64,000 nucleotides of DNA from Bacteroidota bacterium (GTDB lineage: Bacteria; Bacteroidota; Bacteroidia; Sphingobacteriales; Sphingobacteriaceae): assembly GCA_013285685.1 (NCBI GenBank), contig JABDHD010000004.1, positions 1 through 64,000 on the forward strand, written 5' to 3'. The notes beneath the pieces are model-generated. The model saw only the letters and a program-made list of their open reading frames with translations, ran no database searches and was not told the DNA's origin. A program made the translations under genes and the position numbers. Positions 12,764 through 18,331 of this stretch are shown piece by piece. Position 1 is the first letter of the stretch, and every line of letters begins with the position of its first letter.

Positions 12764-12891
12764 ATTAACATCATGCAAATTTATCCACCAATCAACGTTA
12801 AATTCAATTTCGGCTCACAGGTTTTATTTGTGTGTATTATATTTACCTGCCGACAAAATAGCTAACACTTGCATAAGCGCGGTTGCTCCAA

Positions 12892-15207
12892 ATGATGAAA
12901 CGCCCCTTAATTACCGGCATTGGTTTAATGCTGCTCCTTACGCTCATAACCTACCTGAACCACTTTGATAACGCCTTTCATTTCGACGATTTTCATACCA
13001 TCGTAAATAATGCCAATATCCGCACGCTAAAAAATACCCCGCGCTTTTTTACCGACGGACGCACCAGCAGCGTATTACCGCAAAACCAGGCTTACAGGCC
13101 GGTAACTGTACTTTCGTTAGCTGTTGATTACTGGCTGGCCGGCGATTATTATCCATCCTATTTTCAAATGTCAACTTTTATCTTGTTCCTTATACAAGGT
13201 ATATTGATGGTATTCCTGTTCAAAAAGATATTCGATCGGTCGGTCAAGTTCGGGCCAAACGTTTATGTGGCGCTGGTAGCAGTCACCTGGTACATGCTGC
13301 ATCCCGCCAACGCCGAAACAGTTAATTATATAATCGCGCGGACTGATGTACAATCCACCCTTTTTGTTTTACTGGGCCTGGTGATGTACATTTTTTCACC
13401 CTTTTGCAGAAAAACATACTTGTATTTAATTGCGGTTGGCATCGGCGCCCTGTGCAAACCCACCGCTGTAATGTTTGCGCCCATCCTGTTCTTTTATATT
13501 TTGTTTTTTGAGGAAAAGATCGGGTTGAACGAGTTGTTCAAAAAAAGCCGCTTTAAGCAAATTTGGGGCGTATTTGTTAAAACACTGCCATCGATCCTAT
13601 TCTGTACGGTGATGTACGTGTTTACCGGTAAAATGACCCCAAAAACCTGGGAACCCGGCGGCGCATCGGCCATACAATACCTCATTACGCAACCCTTTGT
13701 CATCCTTCATTATTTCGCCGAGTTTTTCCTGCCCACAAGTCTCAGCGCAGATACCGACTGGAAATTACTGCCGTCCGTTTGGGATATTCGCTTTATTGCC
13801 GGCTGCGCCTTTATCCTGGCGATGTTGGTTGTTGCCATTTATGCATCCAAAAAAACGCGGTTGCGGCCCATCAGCTTTGGCATAATCTGGTTCTTTTTGG
13901 CGTTGGTCCCAACTTCCAGTGTCATTCCGCTTGGCGAGGTATTGAATGACCATCGCATGTATTTCCCTTTCGTCGGCCTGGTTATGAGCATAAGCTGGGC
14001 GCTTGGTTTGCTTTATGTGAGGTACCTTTCGGGGGTAAGGAAAGAACTGGTTTTTACAGTGATAGCCTTGATATTGGCCGCCTACGCTTATGGTACCTGG
14101 CAACGCAATATCGTTTGGCATACCGAGGAAAGCTTGTGGCGCGATGTAACCATAAAAAGCCCTGAAAATGGCAGGGGGCTGATGAATTATGCTCTGGCGT
14201 TGTATGGCCGGTCGGATTTTTACGGCGCCGAAAAATATTTAAAGCTGGCAGAAAAGATCACACCGGAGTACTCGTCGGTTTATACCAACCTTGGGCTTGT
14301 AAAAGAAAATGAAGGTGATTTGGTGCTCGCCGAGAATTATTACAAAGCGGGCGTAAAACTGGGCAGCAACTATCCTGACCCCCTGACTTTTTATGGCCGG
14401 TTTTTAATAAAACAATGGCGCTTTACCGAGGCGATACCGCTGCTGCAAAAAGCGATTACCGTTTCGCCGCTTGATATCGAAGCCCGGGCATTGCTGATGA
14501 CCATCTATTCGATGACTGCAGACTGGGACAAGTTAAAAACGCTGGCGCAGCAAAGCCTGGCGCTTTTTCCTCAAAATCCCGATGTGATCAACTACCTGGA
14601 AGCGGCCAACAAAAAGGAAAACGAGCTGGATGTGGTTGACGAAAAAATAAGGCTGCACCCCGACTACGCAAAATTCACCGATTTAAGCGTACTCGACTAC
14701 CAGTTCGGGCGGTATGAGCAATGCATCACAACCGCACAGGAAGCTATTAATATCAATCCGAAATATGCCGAGGCGTATAATAACATCGGCGCGGCCTGTC
14801 TCAAACTGAAGCAGTACGACAGGGCGATTGATGCCCTTAAACAGGCCCTGCAGTTGAAGCCGGCCTTTATGCTCGCAAAAAATAACCTGGACTCGGCAGA
14901 ACGGGAGCTCAAAAGCCAGGGGCCAAAATCGGCTGATCTGACCGCCGCCGGTTATATCAATCTGAGCCTCTACTATTTTAACAACAAACGCTACCAGGAC
15001 TGTATCGACGCTTGCAATAAAGCCCTTGCGTTGAAACCGGGTTATGACCTGGCTTACAATAACATCTGCGCATCGTATAACAAGATGGGCAAATACGATG
15101 AAGCTATCGCGGCCGCAAAAAAAGGATTACAATCCAATCCCAATAATCAATTCCTGAAAAATAATCTTGCGGAAGCGATAAAAGGCCGGTACACCGTGAA
15201 AAAATAA
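12892..15207 (+). CDS. TMTC-like multi-spanning membrane protein with TPR domain
   Basis: About 771 residues: an N-terminal membrane half (about 1-420, roughly ten helices) followed by a TPR half (about 440-765). The first loop has an acidic FHFDDFHTIVNN motif, like the DD/DE motif in loop 1 of GT-C glycosyltransferases, and NQAYRPVTVLSLAVDYW matches TMTC/DUF1736-like proteins. By that family's logic it may transfer sugars from a lipid carrier to secreted proteins, with TPRs binding the acceptor. The function is inferred. I start at the first ATG (12892; another ATG follows at 12895) and not the TTG at 12883. Monocistronic. Confidence 0.8.
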   Translation: MMKRPLITGIGLMLLLTLITYLNHFDNAFHFDDFHTIVNNANIRTLKNTPRFFTDGRTSSVLPQNQAYRPVTVLSLAVDYWLAGDYYPSYFQMSTFILFLIQGILMVFLFKKIFDRSVKFGPNVYVALVAVTWYMLHPANAETVNYIIARTDVQSTLFVLLGLVMYIFSPFCRKTYLYLIAVGIGALCKPTAVMFAPILFFYILFFEEKIGLNELFKKSRFKQIWGVFVKTLPSILFCTVMYVFTGKMTPKTWEPGGASAIQYLITQPFVILHYFAEFFLPTSLSADTDWKLLPSVWDIRFIAGCAFILAMLVVAIYASKKTRLRPISFGIIWFFLALVPTSSVIPLGEVLNDHRMYFPFVGLVMSISWALGLLYVRYLSGVRKELVFTVIALILAAYAYGTWQRNIVWHTEESLWRDVTIKSPENGRGLMNYALALYGRSDFYGAEKYLKLAEKITPEYSSVYTNLGLVKENEGDLVLAENYYKAGVKLGSNYPDPLTFYGRFLIKQWRFTEAIPLLQKAITVSPLDIEARALLMTIYSMTADWDKLKTLAQQSLALFPQNPDVINYLEAANKKENELDVVDEKIRLHPDYAKFTDLSVLDYQFGRYEQCITTAQEAININPKYAEAYNNIGAACLKLKQYDRAIDALKQALQLKPAFMLAKNNLDSAERELKSQGPKSADLTAAGYINLSLYYFNNKRYQDCIDACNKALALKPGYDLAYNNICASYNKMGKYDEAIAAAKKGLQSNPNNQFLKNNLAEAIKGRYTVKK

Positions 15208-15567
15208 AATGAATTCTGTGTTTAGCAATTGAAAATTCTAAACATTCAAACTGTACTTAATTGAAAAATGCGAACACTAGGCAACTCCTTTTCGATATGG
15301 CATTAACTTCTAGAGATGCACCCAAATAAGGCGAAATCGTTTTTATTCCAGAGCATCGCTTTTGGAAACTGAGCACCAAACAGGGTGATCTCTATAAAAT
15401 TATTGGCATACGGAATGCTTTTGGGCTAAATAGGTTGAAAATGCTTAACTTTGTAAGTTAAGATGTTAAAAACTTTAACAAACTTTAACAGTTAAGTTTA
15501 TTATGTTTACTTACGTTTGAAAAGGCCAGAATAATCAACAACTATCCCGTTAAATCTCTTTTATCAA
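15208..15567. other. Intergenic region with gene remnant and palindromic control region
   Basis: No intact gene. Codons at 15330-15461 are open and look protein-like (FWKLSTKQGDLYKIIGIRN) but have no start and were not recognised, so they may be the tail of a lost gene. They end in CTTAACTT-TGT-AAGTTAAG (15444-15462), a perfect 8-bp inverted repeat. Shortly after comes GTTAAA-AAC-TTTAAC, and the motif AACTTTAAC occurs twice in tandem. This AT-rich symmetric cluster lies about 90 bp before the three-gene cassette and could be its promoter/operator. Confidence 0.5.
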
Positions 15568-16230
15568 ATGGCGCATTATATAGTACCTCCAGATTACATC
15601 CCAGGATTTGAAAGTATTATTAAGTTAGACCCGCTGCAATTAGACAATTTAACTAACATAATTTCAGAATTAAAAATTGGCGAGAGATTTGATAGACTAA
15701 TCCGGCGGGCATCCGCTCATTTGCAGCCACTGTCTGAAATAGAGTTAAACAATATCATACGGTCTCTTGTAAGTTTAGTTGAGATATTCGATTCGTCCAA
15801 TAGAAATATTCCCAAATTTTCGAGTGACTTTTCCGAGTCTTATGTAGAGTCGAATCCCACTGCAACAAAAGAAGATGGAGATAAACTAAAGATCAATCTG
15901 TCTAAACTTTTGACAAAATATGATTACATTAGAATAACTTCCAAGGCATTTGATATAATACAAGAAAATCCAATAAATTTTAGAAAAGCCAGGATTGTCA
16001 GTGATATAAGATTTGTCTTTGATGATGACTTGGAAAAGGATAGCAAATATGCTGTTGTTGTCCATAATCTAAAATTAGAATGTTATAATCCTGAAGGCAC
16101 TTTAAATTTTTTTGCTGCAATGGATTTGGCTGATTTAAAAAAAATGAGAACTGTCATTGACAGGGCAATTGAAAAAGATCGCATCATTCGTGAAAATAAA
16201 CATACGATAGATATCATTGACTTAGCATAA
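15568..16230 (+). CDS. Accessory cassette gene 1, unknown function (220 aa)
   Basis: A soluble 220-residue protein with no signal peptide or membrane segment. The C-terminal half looks like the conserved core: ITSKAFDIIQENPINFRKAR, VSDIRFVFDDD, AVVVHNLKLECYN, then an alternating hydrophobic strand and DLADLKKMRTVIDRAIEKD, a charged helix. I have a memory of similar proteins in Proteobacteria but can name no family. Base composition is clearly more AT-rich than the flanking genes. One base separates its stop from the ATG of the next gene, so translation is coupled. Probably a component of a horizontally acquired multi-protein system. Confidence 0.8.
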   Translation: MAHYIVPPDYIPGFESIIKLDPLQLDNLTNIISELKIGERFDRLIRRASAHLQPLSEIELNNIIRSLVSLVEIFDSSNRNIPKFSSDFSESYVESNPTATKEDGDKLKINLSKLLTKYDYIRITSKAFDIIQENPINFRKARIVSDIRFVFDDDLEKDSKYAVVVHNLKLECYNPEGTLNFFAAMDLADLKKMRTVIDRAIEKDRIIRENKHTIDIIDLA

Positions 16231-16231
16231 T

Positions 16232-16816
16232 ATGCCAACTCCCGCAATAAAACCATCATACGAATTCGTGTTATACGTAAATGAAAAGAAGTCATCTTAT
16301 AACAAACGCCCATTTTATTCCAATGGGGGTGGACGATATATCTTGCCTTCAAAAAATGATAAGTCATTATTTGCTCCGGACGGAGTTTTACAAATAGCTA
16401 ACGAGCCTGCATTGCCCTCCTATTTAATTGAAATTGAAGACAGAATAAATTCATCTAAAAGAATTTTGGACTATAAAAATAATTGGGATGATAATGGTGG
16501 AATCCCTGTTAATCCGACGATTTTTGAGAGGGCAACAAACTTTTTGAGGGACTACGCGGAAAGCGTTTTTGATGTTTGCAATAAGGCACTAAGAACACCA
16601 GACATAAATGCTGTTGGCGATGGGTCTGTCGATTTGGAATGGAATTTTGAAAACGCATATTTTTTAATTAATTTTAAAAACACCGAGGAAGATATTGCTT
16701 TTTATTATGGTGAATTCAAAGAAGATAATAAGGTAATTTTTGATGCGAATGGTCAAATTAACACAAATTACGTCCAGGGCCAATTTACTACTTACCTCTC
16801 TAATCTATCCAACTGA
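16232..16816 (+). CDS. Accessory cassette gene 2, unknown function (194 aa)
   Basis: A soluble 194-residue protein, no signal peptide. The segment ILDYKNNWDDNGGIPVNP (about 80-97) followed by a helix, and later a GDGSVDLEWNFENAYFLINF strand pattern, form a recognisable but unnamed motif set: NWD-x2-G-[GA] near the middle and an LEW core strand. Many unrelated bacteria carry proteins with this pattern (from memory; no assigned role). It starts one base after gene 1 stops and is AT-rich like its neighbours. The reading frame of gene 3 extends back into its 3' end. Confidence 0.8.
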   Translation: MPTPAIKPSYEFVLYVNEKKSSYNKRPFYSNGGGRYILPSKNDKSLFAPDGVLQIANEPALPSYLIEIEDRINSSKRILDYKNNWDDNGGIPVNPTIFERATNFLRDYAESVFDVCNKALRTPDINAVGDGSVDLEWNFENAYFLINFKNTEEDIAFYYGEFKEDNKVIFDANGQINTNYVQGQFTTYLSNLSN

Positions 16817-16835
16817 AAAAATCACTTTAGATTCA

Positions 16836-17255
16836 GTGTTATACAGGCAAGTGAAATTTAATATGATTTCACAAACGACGTTGCGGCCGTCAGCCAATAA
16901 TTTTAGAGACCCGGAATTATCGTGTGACTGGAATAAATATGCAACCCCAGAGCAGTGTCGAAAATTTATCTCAAAACAATATAAACCAAATACAAAAGAG
17001 TTTAAAAATGAGAGTGAATATTTTATATGTGGTATTTACGTACAAGATAATTTAAATCTCAATCCACAACAGACCTTTCTCCATGATCCGATATTCAGGT
17101 TGATACCCAAAAAAGGGACTCCCAATAATCGTGCTCATTCAATAATCGTTGGAGATAAATCAGAGAAGGACGCCTTGAAAGCGAGAGGCCAATTAGCAGC
17201 GCGAGCAAAATGGATATTGTTTGACGAGCAGGAATTCAAACAGCTAATTGCGTGA
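16836..17255 (+). CDS. Accessory cassette gene 3, unknown function (about 139 aa)
   Basis: A soluble protein with LYRQV near the N-terminus, TLRPSANNFRDPELSCDW, and a C-terminal block NNRAHSIIVGDKSEKDA...ARAKWI. LYR-[RQ]-V, RPS-x2-F-x-DPELS and N-x-AH-x3-VG-x-K are motifs of a widespread unannotated small-protein family (recollection). The start is uncertain: GTG at 16836 keeps the LYR motif, ATG at 16863 would lose it, and ATG at 16740 would overlap gene 2 by 77 bases. It ends the AT-rich cassette; no other gene follows before the inverted-repeat element at 17370. Confidence 0.75.
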   Translation: MLYRQVKFNMISQTTLRPSANNFRDPELSCDWNKYATPEQCRKFISKQYKPNTKEFKNESEYFICGIYVQDNLNLNPQQTFLHDPIFRLIPKKGTPNNRAHSIIVGDKSEKDALKARGQLAARAKWILFDEQEFKQLIA

Positions 17256-17369
17256 AGGATATTTCCAAATCTTTATTAAGTGCAGTTATACATTATAATA
17301 TTTTGATTTTAGCCACAGTCGAGCAATGTTAATACCCAAACTTTTAATTTAATTGTAGGCGGATTTAGT

Positions 17370-17468
17370 GCATTCGTATGTTAGTGCTTTCGGTGTGGGA
17401 ATCGCACCGCCCACCGCTTTAGAAGCACGTGCTCCCTTCGTTTTCAATCGCTAACACGCAATGAATGC
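17370..17468. repeat. Nested inverted-repeat element (about 99 bp)
   Basis: Successive complementary blocks fold into one long arm: GCATTC (17370) with GAATGC (17463), TGTTAG (17379) with CTAACA (17451), GTGCTT (17384) with AAGCAC (17423), and CGGTGTGGG with CCCACCG (2-base bulge) at the tip. It lies between the convergent ends of the cassette and the methyltransferase gene and reaches that gene's stop codon. It could be a bidirectional terminator, a structured RNA or a miniature mobile element. It has no terminal T-runs. Confidence 0.55.
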
Positions 17469-18331
17469 TATTTCTCCTTAACAAAGAAAAATGCCCTTAC
17501 ATCTGGTTTCGAAGCAGCGATAACAGGTTTCAACATAGCTATCCCGGTTGTTAAAAACAAGGCTTTGAGCTTGCCCACATCGCCGTCAGCCCGAATTCTT
17601 TCTTTAACGGTTTTAAAATCAACGGAGTTGAGTTTAAAATCAGCAATGTTATTAAATCCATGCCTGCCCAGCAGCATTTTTAGATTTTTTTGGTTAAAAT
17701 AATTCATGTGCGGGCTATGGAAATAGAACTGCCACAATCTTTCGAGGTAGGATTTGATGCCGAATTTGTTTAACAATACGGCTGTGCGATAAAAAAAGCC
17801 ATCGCTCATAGGCAGGTTAATGATCAGGATGCCTCCAGGCGCAAGGTCTTGCTTTAGCGCCGCTATCAGATCGTCCAGGTCTTTTATATGCTCAAACACA
17901 TCATTAAAAATGATAAAATCGTAACCGGCTTCACTTTTTATTGCCTCGTTAGGATAAAATCCGTAAAAAACATTCAGCCCGTTTTCTTCATGATAAGCTA
18001 CGAATGATTTTTCGGGCTCAACGCCGGTGCAGGTAATGCCTTTTTCCTGGCAAACTTTTAACCACCAGCCATTTCCCGAGCCGATTTCCAGTCCGCTAAG
18101 CTTGCCCGGTTTAACTCTCTGAAGCTCGTCGATGATCGTATAAAAATTTCCAAAACGCAGTGTTTTCAGGCCCACTTCGCGCGGACCTTCATCCAGCTTG
18201 GATTTAAAGGAGAAATCAAACCCGGCATCTGATGTAAACAATCCGCAGGACGGGCATTTATAAACATTAAATTTTAACCTGAACTTCAGTTTGGATGGGT
18301 TACCGCAAACCGGGCATTTTAGCTGATCCAT
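17468..18331 (-). CDS. Class I SAM-dependent methyltransferase with zinc ribbon
   Basis: A 287-residue protein. An N-terminal zinc ribbon has two CPxC knuckles (CPVCGNPSK at about 6-9 and CPSCG at about 25-28). Motif I is GLEIGSGNGWWLKVC, an acidic residue (GVEPEK) marks the end of strand 2, and IIFNDVFEHIKD and GGILIINLP are typical of Methyltransf_23 proteins in polysaccharide clusters. A hydrophobic helix (about 178-205) may contact membrane. It is the last gene of a three-gene minus-strand run with a GT2 glycosyltransferase and DUF2304, so it probably methylates a sugar or lipid-linked glycan. Confidence 0.88.
   Translation of the reverse strand: MDQLKCPVCGNPSKLKFRLKFNVYKCPSCGLFTSDAGFDFSFKSKLDEGPREVGLKTLRFGNFYTIIDELQRVKPGKLSGLEIGSGNGWWLKVCQEKGITCTGVEPEKSFVAYHEENGLNVFYGFYPNEAIKSEAGYDFIIFNDVFEHIKDLDDLIAALKQDLAPGGILIINLPMSDGFFYRTAVLLNKFGIKSYLERLWQFYFHSPHMNYFNQKNLKMLLGRHGFNNIADFKLNSVDFKTVKERIRADGDVGKLKALFLTTGIAMLKPVIAASKPDVRAFFFVKEK

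Follow-up and report, generated by a model that had tools for sequence, protein, structure and literature searches.

The cassette at positions 15568-17255 lies in a 64-kb window (the whole stretch of DNA that was analysed) and consists of three consecutive genes between a TPR/membrane protein gene and a methyltransferase-like gene (Table 1). The three open reading frames noticed in the sequence-only reading of this DNA were confirmed, including the close spacing of genes 1 and 2. They do not form a chance set, since the same gene order occurs in 13 other distinct loci. The cassette had also been described as an AT-rich island, which is borne out by its G+C content of 34.8% compared with 44.3% for the window; among equal-sized windows this value is near the 1st percentile (34.6%; the 5th percentile is 38.6%).

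Table 1. Positions of the cassette genes, the insertion that carries them and the flanking features in the window.
Feature	Position	Strand	Length and remarks
TPR/membrane protein gene, upstream flank	12883-15207	+	
Insertion with cassette	15208-17467	.	Flanks: TPR/membrane protein gene and methyltransferase-like gene
AT-rich imperfect inverted repeat, 5' of gene 1	15444-15496	.	Arms 15444-15459/15481-15496
Gene 1	15568-16230	+	220 aa; ORF
Gene 2	16232-16816	+	194 aa; ORF; 1-base gap from gene 1
Gene 3	16743-17255	+	170 aa from ATG 16743; 139 aa from GTG 16836
Methyltransferase-like gene, downstream flank	17468-18331	-	

The start of gene 3 requires a correction. The gene had been given about 139 residues and a start 20-50 bases after gene 2. 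That start, GTG 16836, is probably too late, because the frame stays open upstream to an ATG and the residues ahead of the GTG (EKITLDSVLYR) are similar to the start E-x-I-P-D-x-x-x-L-Y of the relatives. We favour the ATG, from which gene 3 would overlap gene 2 by 74 bases. Seventeen other distinct loci carry both gene 2 and gene 3, and when longest-ORF starts are used the two genes overlap in 14 of them, by 4-46 bases; the exceptions are L010, L027 and L028.

The inverted repeat upstream of gene 1 has 16-nt arms that are 81% complementary and separated by a 21-nt spacer. A symmetric AT-rich control region had been proposed here; the symmetry is present in this imperfect form, and a control function is possible. 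The promoter-like match at 15475-15504 is weak, and the region has 17 such matches against 8.7 expected. The nested inverted repeat suggested downstream of the genes did not reappear in the list of inverted pairs (25 of 67), and no terminator-like site is listed for the plus strand in 15180-17480.

The genomic position of the cassette was compared with that in related genomes. A search of 100 same-genus genomes with the methyltransferase-like protein gave 12 loci for comparison, including the window's own. In eight of the 11 other loci the TPR gene directly adjoins the methyltransferase gene (at a distance of -19 to 123 bases when longest ORFs are used), and in the remaining three (L077, L078, L084) the TPR gene was not found within the stretch around the methyltransferase gene. 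In the window, 2260 bases separate the two genes; the segment between them thus came as an insertion or inside one. No repeat links the two ends of this segment among the 20 of 26 direct families and 25 of 67 inverted pairs listed.

The order gene 1-gene 2-gene 3 was found in 14 distinct loci, including the window, in Bacteroidota and beyond (L003-L007, L010, L012, L018, L020, L021, L025, L028 and L034, with L019 merged as a repeat of L010 and L022 as a repeat of L006). The conservation of the order past one phylum, which the sequence-only reading had named as a check on its proposal, is therefore present. Sorangium (L018) and Troglogloeales (L021) are outside Bacteroidota in the usual taxonomies, and Ignavibacteria (L020 and L028) are set apart from Bacteroidota by some. 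The genes were assigned by profiles made from mostly these same sequences, L034 excepted, so the tally is a count, not an independent check. Gene order was taken from the ORF lists. The gene 1 and gene 2 proteins are 18-33% identical to those of the window and the gene 3 proteins 23-40%, in alignments made without L034.

The distribution of the cassette is patchy. With gene 2 as query, six of the 151 genomes of the order were found, including the window's own, and all five others carry genes 1 and 3 in the same order. Gene 1 profiles found four of 296 phylum genomes and two of 395 class genomes, the own genome being counted each time; three of the four other genomes have genes 2 and 3 (L010, L012, L034) and the fourth (L011) lacks them. 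The gene 3 profile found five of 296 phylum genomes, including the own one, and the other four are the L010 and L012 genomes and those of L016 and L017. A gene 3 query of three sequences against named genomes gave 11 loci, from Sorangium, Balneolaceae, Ignavibacteria (two), Troglogloeales, Mucilaginibacter rivuli, Planctomycetota, Verrucomicrobia, Bacteroidetes, Phycisphaerales and Saprospiraceae; by profile, gene 2 is present in all 11 and gene 1 in seven. Gene 3 relatives were found neither in viral contigs nor, with the L010 protein as query, in plasmids or phage records; the query P0003 likewise found none in plasmids, and gene 2 had no match in plasmids.

Genes 2 and 3 also occur with other partners or on their own. 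A TIGR04255 protein occupies the gene 1 slot in L016 (E 1.4e-24), and an unrecognised gene does so in L023, L024 and L026. Genes 2 and 3 are present and gene 1 is absent in L027, and L017 has only a gene 2-like gene and a weak gene 3-like gene. The slot genes of L023, L024 and L026 were considered as divergent COMMD-like proteins, which is not supported, as their hhalign E-values of 0.05-0.4 do not improve on the 0.07 of a gene 2 control. The C-termini are nevertheless similar by eye.

The mobility of the cassette is well supported. One copy (L067) is located in a prophage, where portal and terminase genes lie to one side of it and replication genes to the other, and another (L068) adjoins an integrase, an excisionase-like gene and a rolling-circle replication gene. 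The cassette is a real, conserved and mobile three-gene system. The general collections assign no family to its proteins in the window: Pfam and PHROGs gave nothing better than E 0.13 for the window proteins, and NCBIfam nothing at E <= 1.

Gene 1 encodes a bacterial COMMD-like protein. The window protein is homologous nearly end to end to the solved COMMD-like protein MBK5214510 (PDB 9q6a, 9q6c, 9q6d), with a phmmer E-value of 1.1e-23 against 9q6a over residues 4-217 of 220. When the gene 1 profile was compared with the sequences of solved structures, MBK5214510 was again the best match (E 1.1e-49), followed by human COMMD7 (E 0.03) and then by ribosomal L9 chains (E 0.05). Human COMMD7 is thus barely ahead of ribosomal L9, and the link to the eukaryotic proteins is not based on sequence. 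The Pfam COMM_domain family (PF07258) matches two of 14 members with a best E-value of 0.026 and does not match the window protein; against single members, unrelated families score as well as E 0.0011. Pfam, NCBIfam, PADLOC and PHROGs give no family name for gene 1.

The relationship to COMMD proteins is seen in the structure predicted for the L021 relative (pLDDT 77 over a two-gene chain). In the Foldseek search with this model, 9q6a and 9q6c were found at E 8.7e-12 to 4.4e-10, and human CCC/Commander chains follow, beginning at E 1.9e-6. The search gave 11 rows at E <= 0.001, every one of them a COMMD protein. VIA-align gave Z 13.4 for 9q6a (rmsd 5.8, 204 residues) and Z 8.1 for a human COMMD chain (rmsd 9.5, 170 residues). 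The model consists of helices at 7-130, strands at 133-182 and a helix at 184-210, so the predicted architecture is a helical N-terminal domain followed by C-terminal strands and a helix, as in the COMM domain fold. The same two-part fold, helical domain plus COMM domain, is found in the COMMD ring of human Commander (8f2r, 8p0w). In humans, ten different COMMD proteins make up the ring and CCDC22/93 are its partners; no counterpart of CCDC22/93 was recognised in the cassette. To our knowledge, COMMD proteins had been known only from eukaryotes, where they act in endosomal recycling; a bacterial one has now been solved. The bacterial COMMD-like family is real and partly known. According to the titles of 9q6a and 9q6c, released on 2025-10-01, the solved protein is octameric and comes from Flavobacteriaceae (PDB). 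By analogy with this octameric relative, the gene 1 protein probably assembles into a ring.

Genes 2 and 3 are homologous to PDC-M32, a two-gene phage defence candidate of PADLOC whose genes A and B have the same order as genes 2 and 3 of the cassette. The gene 2 protein has a variable N-terminus and a conserved domain with the motifs WD-G and P-x-I-x-x-x-x-GS-x-D-x-x-W. The PADLOC model of PDC-M32A (PDLC04575) matches it with E 3.7e-6, at model positions 264-348 of 375 only, and hhalign aligned it with the C-terminal part of PDC-M32A at probability 95.3 and E 2.4e-8. For gene 3 and PDC-M32B the hhalign probability is 97.3 (E 2.4e-11); the PADLOC models of PDC-M32B gave no match to the window protein at E <= 1. 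With a cut-off of E <= 0.01, four of five PDC-M32B proteins are matched by the gene 3 profile and two of five PDC-M32A proteins by the gene 2 profile, neither profile being built from them. Conversely, of the 18 distinct proteins for each gene, the PDC-M32A profile recovers 10 for gene 2 and the PDC-M32B profile three for gene 3 at the same threshold.

In PDC-M32A the gene 2 domain is fused to a different N-terminal part of about 260 residues that has no counterpart in the cassette. Gene 1 was tried as the missing half and was rejected (hhalign E 0.29). Since the N-terminal part of PDC-M32A is missing and gene 1 is unlike it, the cassette is a COMMD-based relative of PDC-M32 and no member of it. 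A complete PDC-M32A/B pair is present in another genome of the same family (L008), and further pairs were found on plasmids of Limnohabitans, Rhodococcus, Rhizobium and Sinomonas; three of these four plasmid loci are near restriction, DNA-methyltransferase or toxin-antitoxin genes, the exception being L031. One paper reports that PADLOC assigns PDC-M32A and B to a prophage of Sinorhizobium and terms such systems hypothetical (PMC12429752), and another uses PDC in the same sense of phage defence candidate (PMC11514479). In the open literature, which here takes in few subscription papers and no preprints, we found no experiment on PDC-M32, no paper on TIGR04255, and no paper on the function of the bacterial COMMD-like protein or MBK5214510.

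These homologies qualify the view of the cassette as an undescribed system of unrecognised proteins, a view that is otherwise largely supported. It is a conserved mobile unit whose window proteins Pfam, NCBIfam and PHROGs leave unassigned, and to this extent the description stands. The statement that none of the proteins is recognisable does not hold in that form: gene 1 is homologous to a solved protein, and the homology of genes 2 and 3 is to a PADLOC candidate. Parts of the cassette were thus already known.

The fold of gene 3 was taken from a read-through model of L027 genes 2 and 3 (mean pLDDT 91.4, pTM 0.65). The first 11 rows in VIA-align are Tpt1/KptA structures with Z 9.4-7.5 over 91-96 residues, followed by the next row at Z 5.8. 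They cover model residues 136-261, which correspond to gene 3 (126 residues). Nine of these rows are Tpt1/KptA by title, and 1wfx (A. pernix APE0204) and 9lda presumably belong with them, the whole group representing few underlying proteins. The top match (Z 9.4, rmsd 3.0, 96 residues) is only modestly above background, because a best Z of 7 to 8 is usual for models without a clear match or true kinship. DarT appears further down the same list at Z 4.1. Foldseek found no PDB or viral-structure match to the L027 model at E <= 0.001; two viral structures are weaker matches, A0A9E7QQI2 (E 3e-3) and A0A345BPV0 (E 8.5e-3).

Gene 3 runs through an LYxRVH strand, about 24 residues, an MSTDW strand, a helix, two further strands and an NRAHT strand, a succession that by eye is similar to the LYHGT, VHLS and N-x-VWL elements of KptA. 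The first ADP-ribosyltransferase (ART) motif position varies, the sequence being either LYR-x-VH or LY-x-RVH. The predicted fold of gene 3 resembles that of Tpt1/KptA, and gene 3 differs from this family in lacking sequence similarity. Membership by sequence was rejected for KptA (hhalign E 0.65, with a low-diversity comparison profile made from 13 KptA sequences found in the window's order) and for the RES family (E 0.036, also with a low-diversity comparison profile), and Pfam gave chance-level matches only. In the Tpt1 chains only residues 84-181 are matched, and the N-terminal part of KptA has no counterpart in gene 3. On balance, we consider it somewhat more probable than not that gene 3 has an ADP-ribosyltransferase-like fold; ADP-ribosyltransferase activity would be less probable than the fold.

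The VIA-align lists of two models gave no clear fold for gene 2, although such lists cannot exclude other folds. For the gene 2 domain of the L027 model, the matches are Mediator chains (Z 5.8) and chain C of 7zhm (Z 5.2, rmsd 2.9, 75 of 87 residues). The second model matches Mediator at Z 7.0 and actin-capping protein at up to 5.8, and 7zhm is not listed. The Mediator chains are presumably MED17. Chain C of 7zhm is, judging from its length, the immunity protein of an ART toxin-immunity complex. One of the two gene 2 models has a middling match to this Tri-Tu entry of the Tre-Tu/Tri-Tu pair. The antitoxin KreA is reported to have, possibly, a fold like that of Tri-Tu (PMC12487901). Because the structural matches are middling, inhibition of gene 3 by gene 2 is only a guess. 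We know of no gene 1-like protein in the KreTA and Tre-Tu/Tri-Tu pairs.

The neighbourhood of the cassette does not support its enrichment in defence islands, another check named in the sequence-only reading. PADLOC models were compared at E <= 1e-10 with 100 proteins within about 5 kb of 15 loci, a set that does not include the window's neighbours or a control set. In total 43 PADLOC families matched, and each of the 25 listed was matched by one protein. The restriction (type IIG) and SNF2-like matches apparently belong to two large genes beside the L069 cassette, which makes L069 apparently the one locus of the 15 with clear defence neighbours. By eye, the remaining neighbours look ordinary and are mostly housekeeping-like.

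As a tentative explanation of these observations, one to which we give somewhat less than an even chance as a whole, we propose that the cassette is a horizontally mobile operon with a COMMD ring, a linking or inhibiting gene 2 protein and an ART-like gene 3 effector that stops growth. The ring of gene 1 proteins would sense a signal or hold its partners. The gene 2 protein would tie the effector, the small gene 3 protein with the ADP-ribosyltransferase-like fold, to the ring and probably keep it inactive. Infection or another insult may alter the ring and release the gene 3 protein, which would then modify a host or phage target, and growth would stop. In this scheme the cassette would be toxin-antitoxin-like and would probably have an anti-phage role. 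Given the other N-terminal part of PDC-M32A and the TIGR04255 or unrecognised genes in the gene 1 slot, gene 1 seems to be a sensor or regulator that can be swapped on a core of genes 2 and 3. Such a core with an exchangeable partner would fit the look of sensor-effector systems.

The same observations could be explained without conflict between cell and phage. It is unlikely, in our estimate, that the cassette is a regulatory or scaffold module, with the COMMD ring arranging genes 2 and 3 for a task of cell physiology and with gene 3 as an ART-like binder that does not catalyse a reaction. The role of eukaryotic COMMD proteins in endosomal recycling, the neighbours, which mostly look ordinary, and the variable first ART motif position are consistent with such a module; its patchy presence, its insertion and its prophage or integrase context are unsuited to a core task, and the homology to a PADLOC candidate also argues against it. 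We regard as quite unlikely a toxin-antitoxin or addiction module that has no anti-phage role and whose loss is harmful, with gene 3 as toxin, gene 2 as antitoxin and gene 1 as regulator. The compact and mostly overlapping genes, the sporadic distribution with copies in a prophage and beside an integrase, and the PDC-M32 relatives on plasmids would all be expected of an addiction module, but three conserved genes with a COMMD-like protein exceed the classic modules, and no DNA-binding domain was recognised in gene 1 or gene 2 of the window.

A defence module could also operate with a different kind of effector. Gene 3 would then be another small alpha/beta protein and no ADP-ribosyltransferase, in agreement with the ART assignment being without sequence support and with the lack of a significant Foldseek match. 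We find this improbable, as the top 11 VIA-align rows belong to one fold family, fall to Z 7.5 against 5.8 for the next row, and cover 91-96 of the 126 residues.

The growth-stopping operon with a COMMD ring and an ART-like effector, if it exists as proposed, bears on the origin of the Commander ring. Bacterial COMMD-like rings would serve a mobile anti-phage system as platforms for sensing or holding, with an exchangeable gene 1 slot, and the COMMD ring of eukaryotic Commander would descend from a bacterial immunity device. We put this forward as a speculation that is rather unlikely to hold in full. The packing of COMMD-like genes with two partners akin to a candidate phage-defence pair provides these proteins with concrete partners and a testable function. 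Gene 1 also has other company: in L011 it is accompanied by a DUF7689 protein (E 1.3e-29) and by another protein of 189 aa.

The COMMD-like gene of L011, a related locus in another genome, is followed by genes for a 189-aa unknown protein and a DUF7689 protein, and genes 2 and 3 of the cassette are not found downstream of it. With these two proteins, the COMMD-like proteins of bacteria have a second set of partners. At the related locus L016, a TIGR04255 gene is located immediately 5' of both the gene 2-like and gene 3-like genes. No publication on TIGR04255 was found in a search of the open literature, in which preprints were absent and subscription papers few.

The L067 prophage carries the three-gene cassette with packaging genes on one side and replication genes on the other. 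Neighbours of the plasmid-borne pairs of the phage defence candidate PDC-M32A/B (L029, L030, L032) include genes of toxin-antitoxin systems, those of a DNA methyltransferase accompanied by a helicase, and type I restriction genes.

Features of the window and of related loci
Sequence	Coordinates	Feature
L011	403-2136	COMMD-like locus
L016	21-1887	TIGR04255 locus
L067	2181-14610	cassette among prophage genes
Window	15208-15567	part of the insertion 5' of gene 1

The stretch of the insertion 5' of gene 1 is about 360 bases long; it contains an imperfect 16-nt inverted repeat and recurring AACTTTAAC-like words.

Four RES-domain matches were found in the window's own genome, outside the window. The viral folds in BFVD closest to the predicted gene 2-gene 3 structure are two unnamed proteins, A0A9E7QQI2 (E 3e-3) and A0A345BPV0 (E 8.5e-3).
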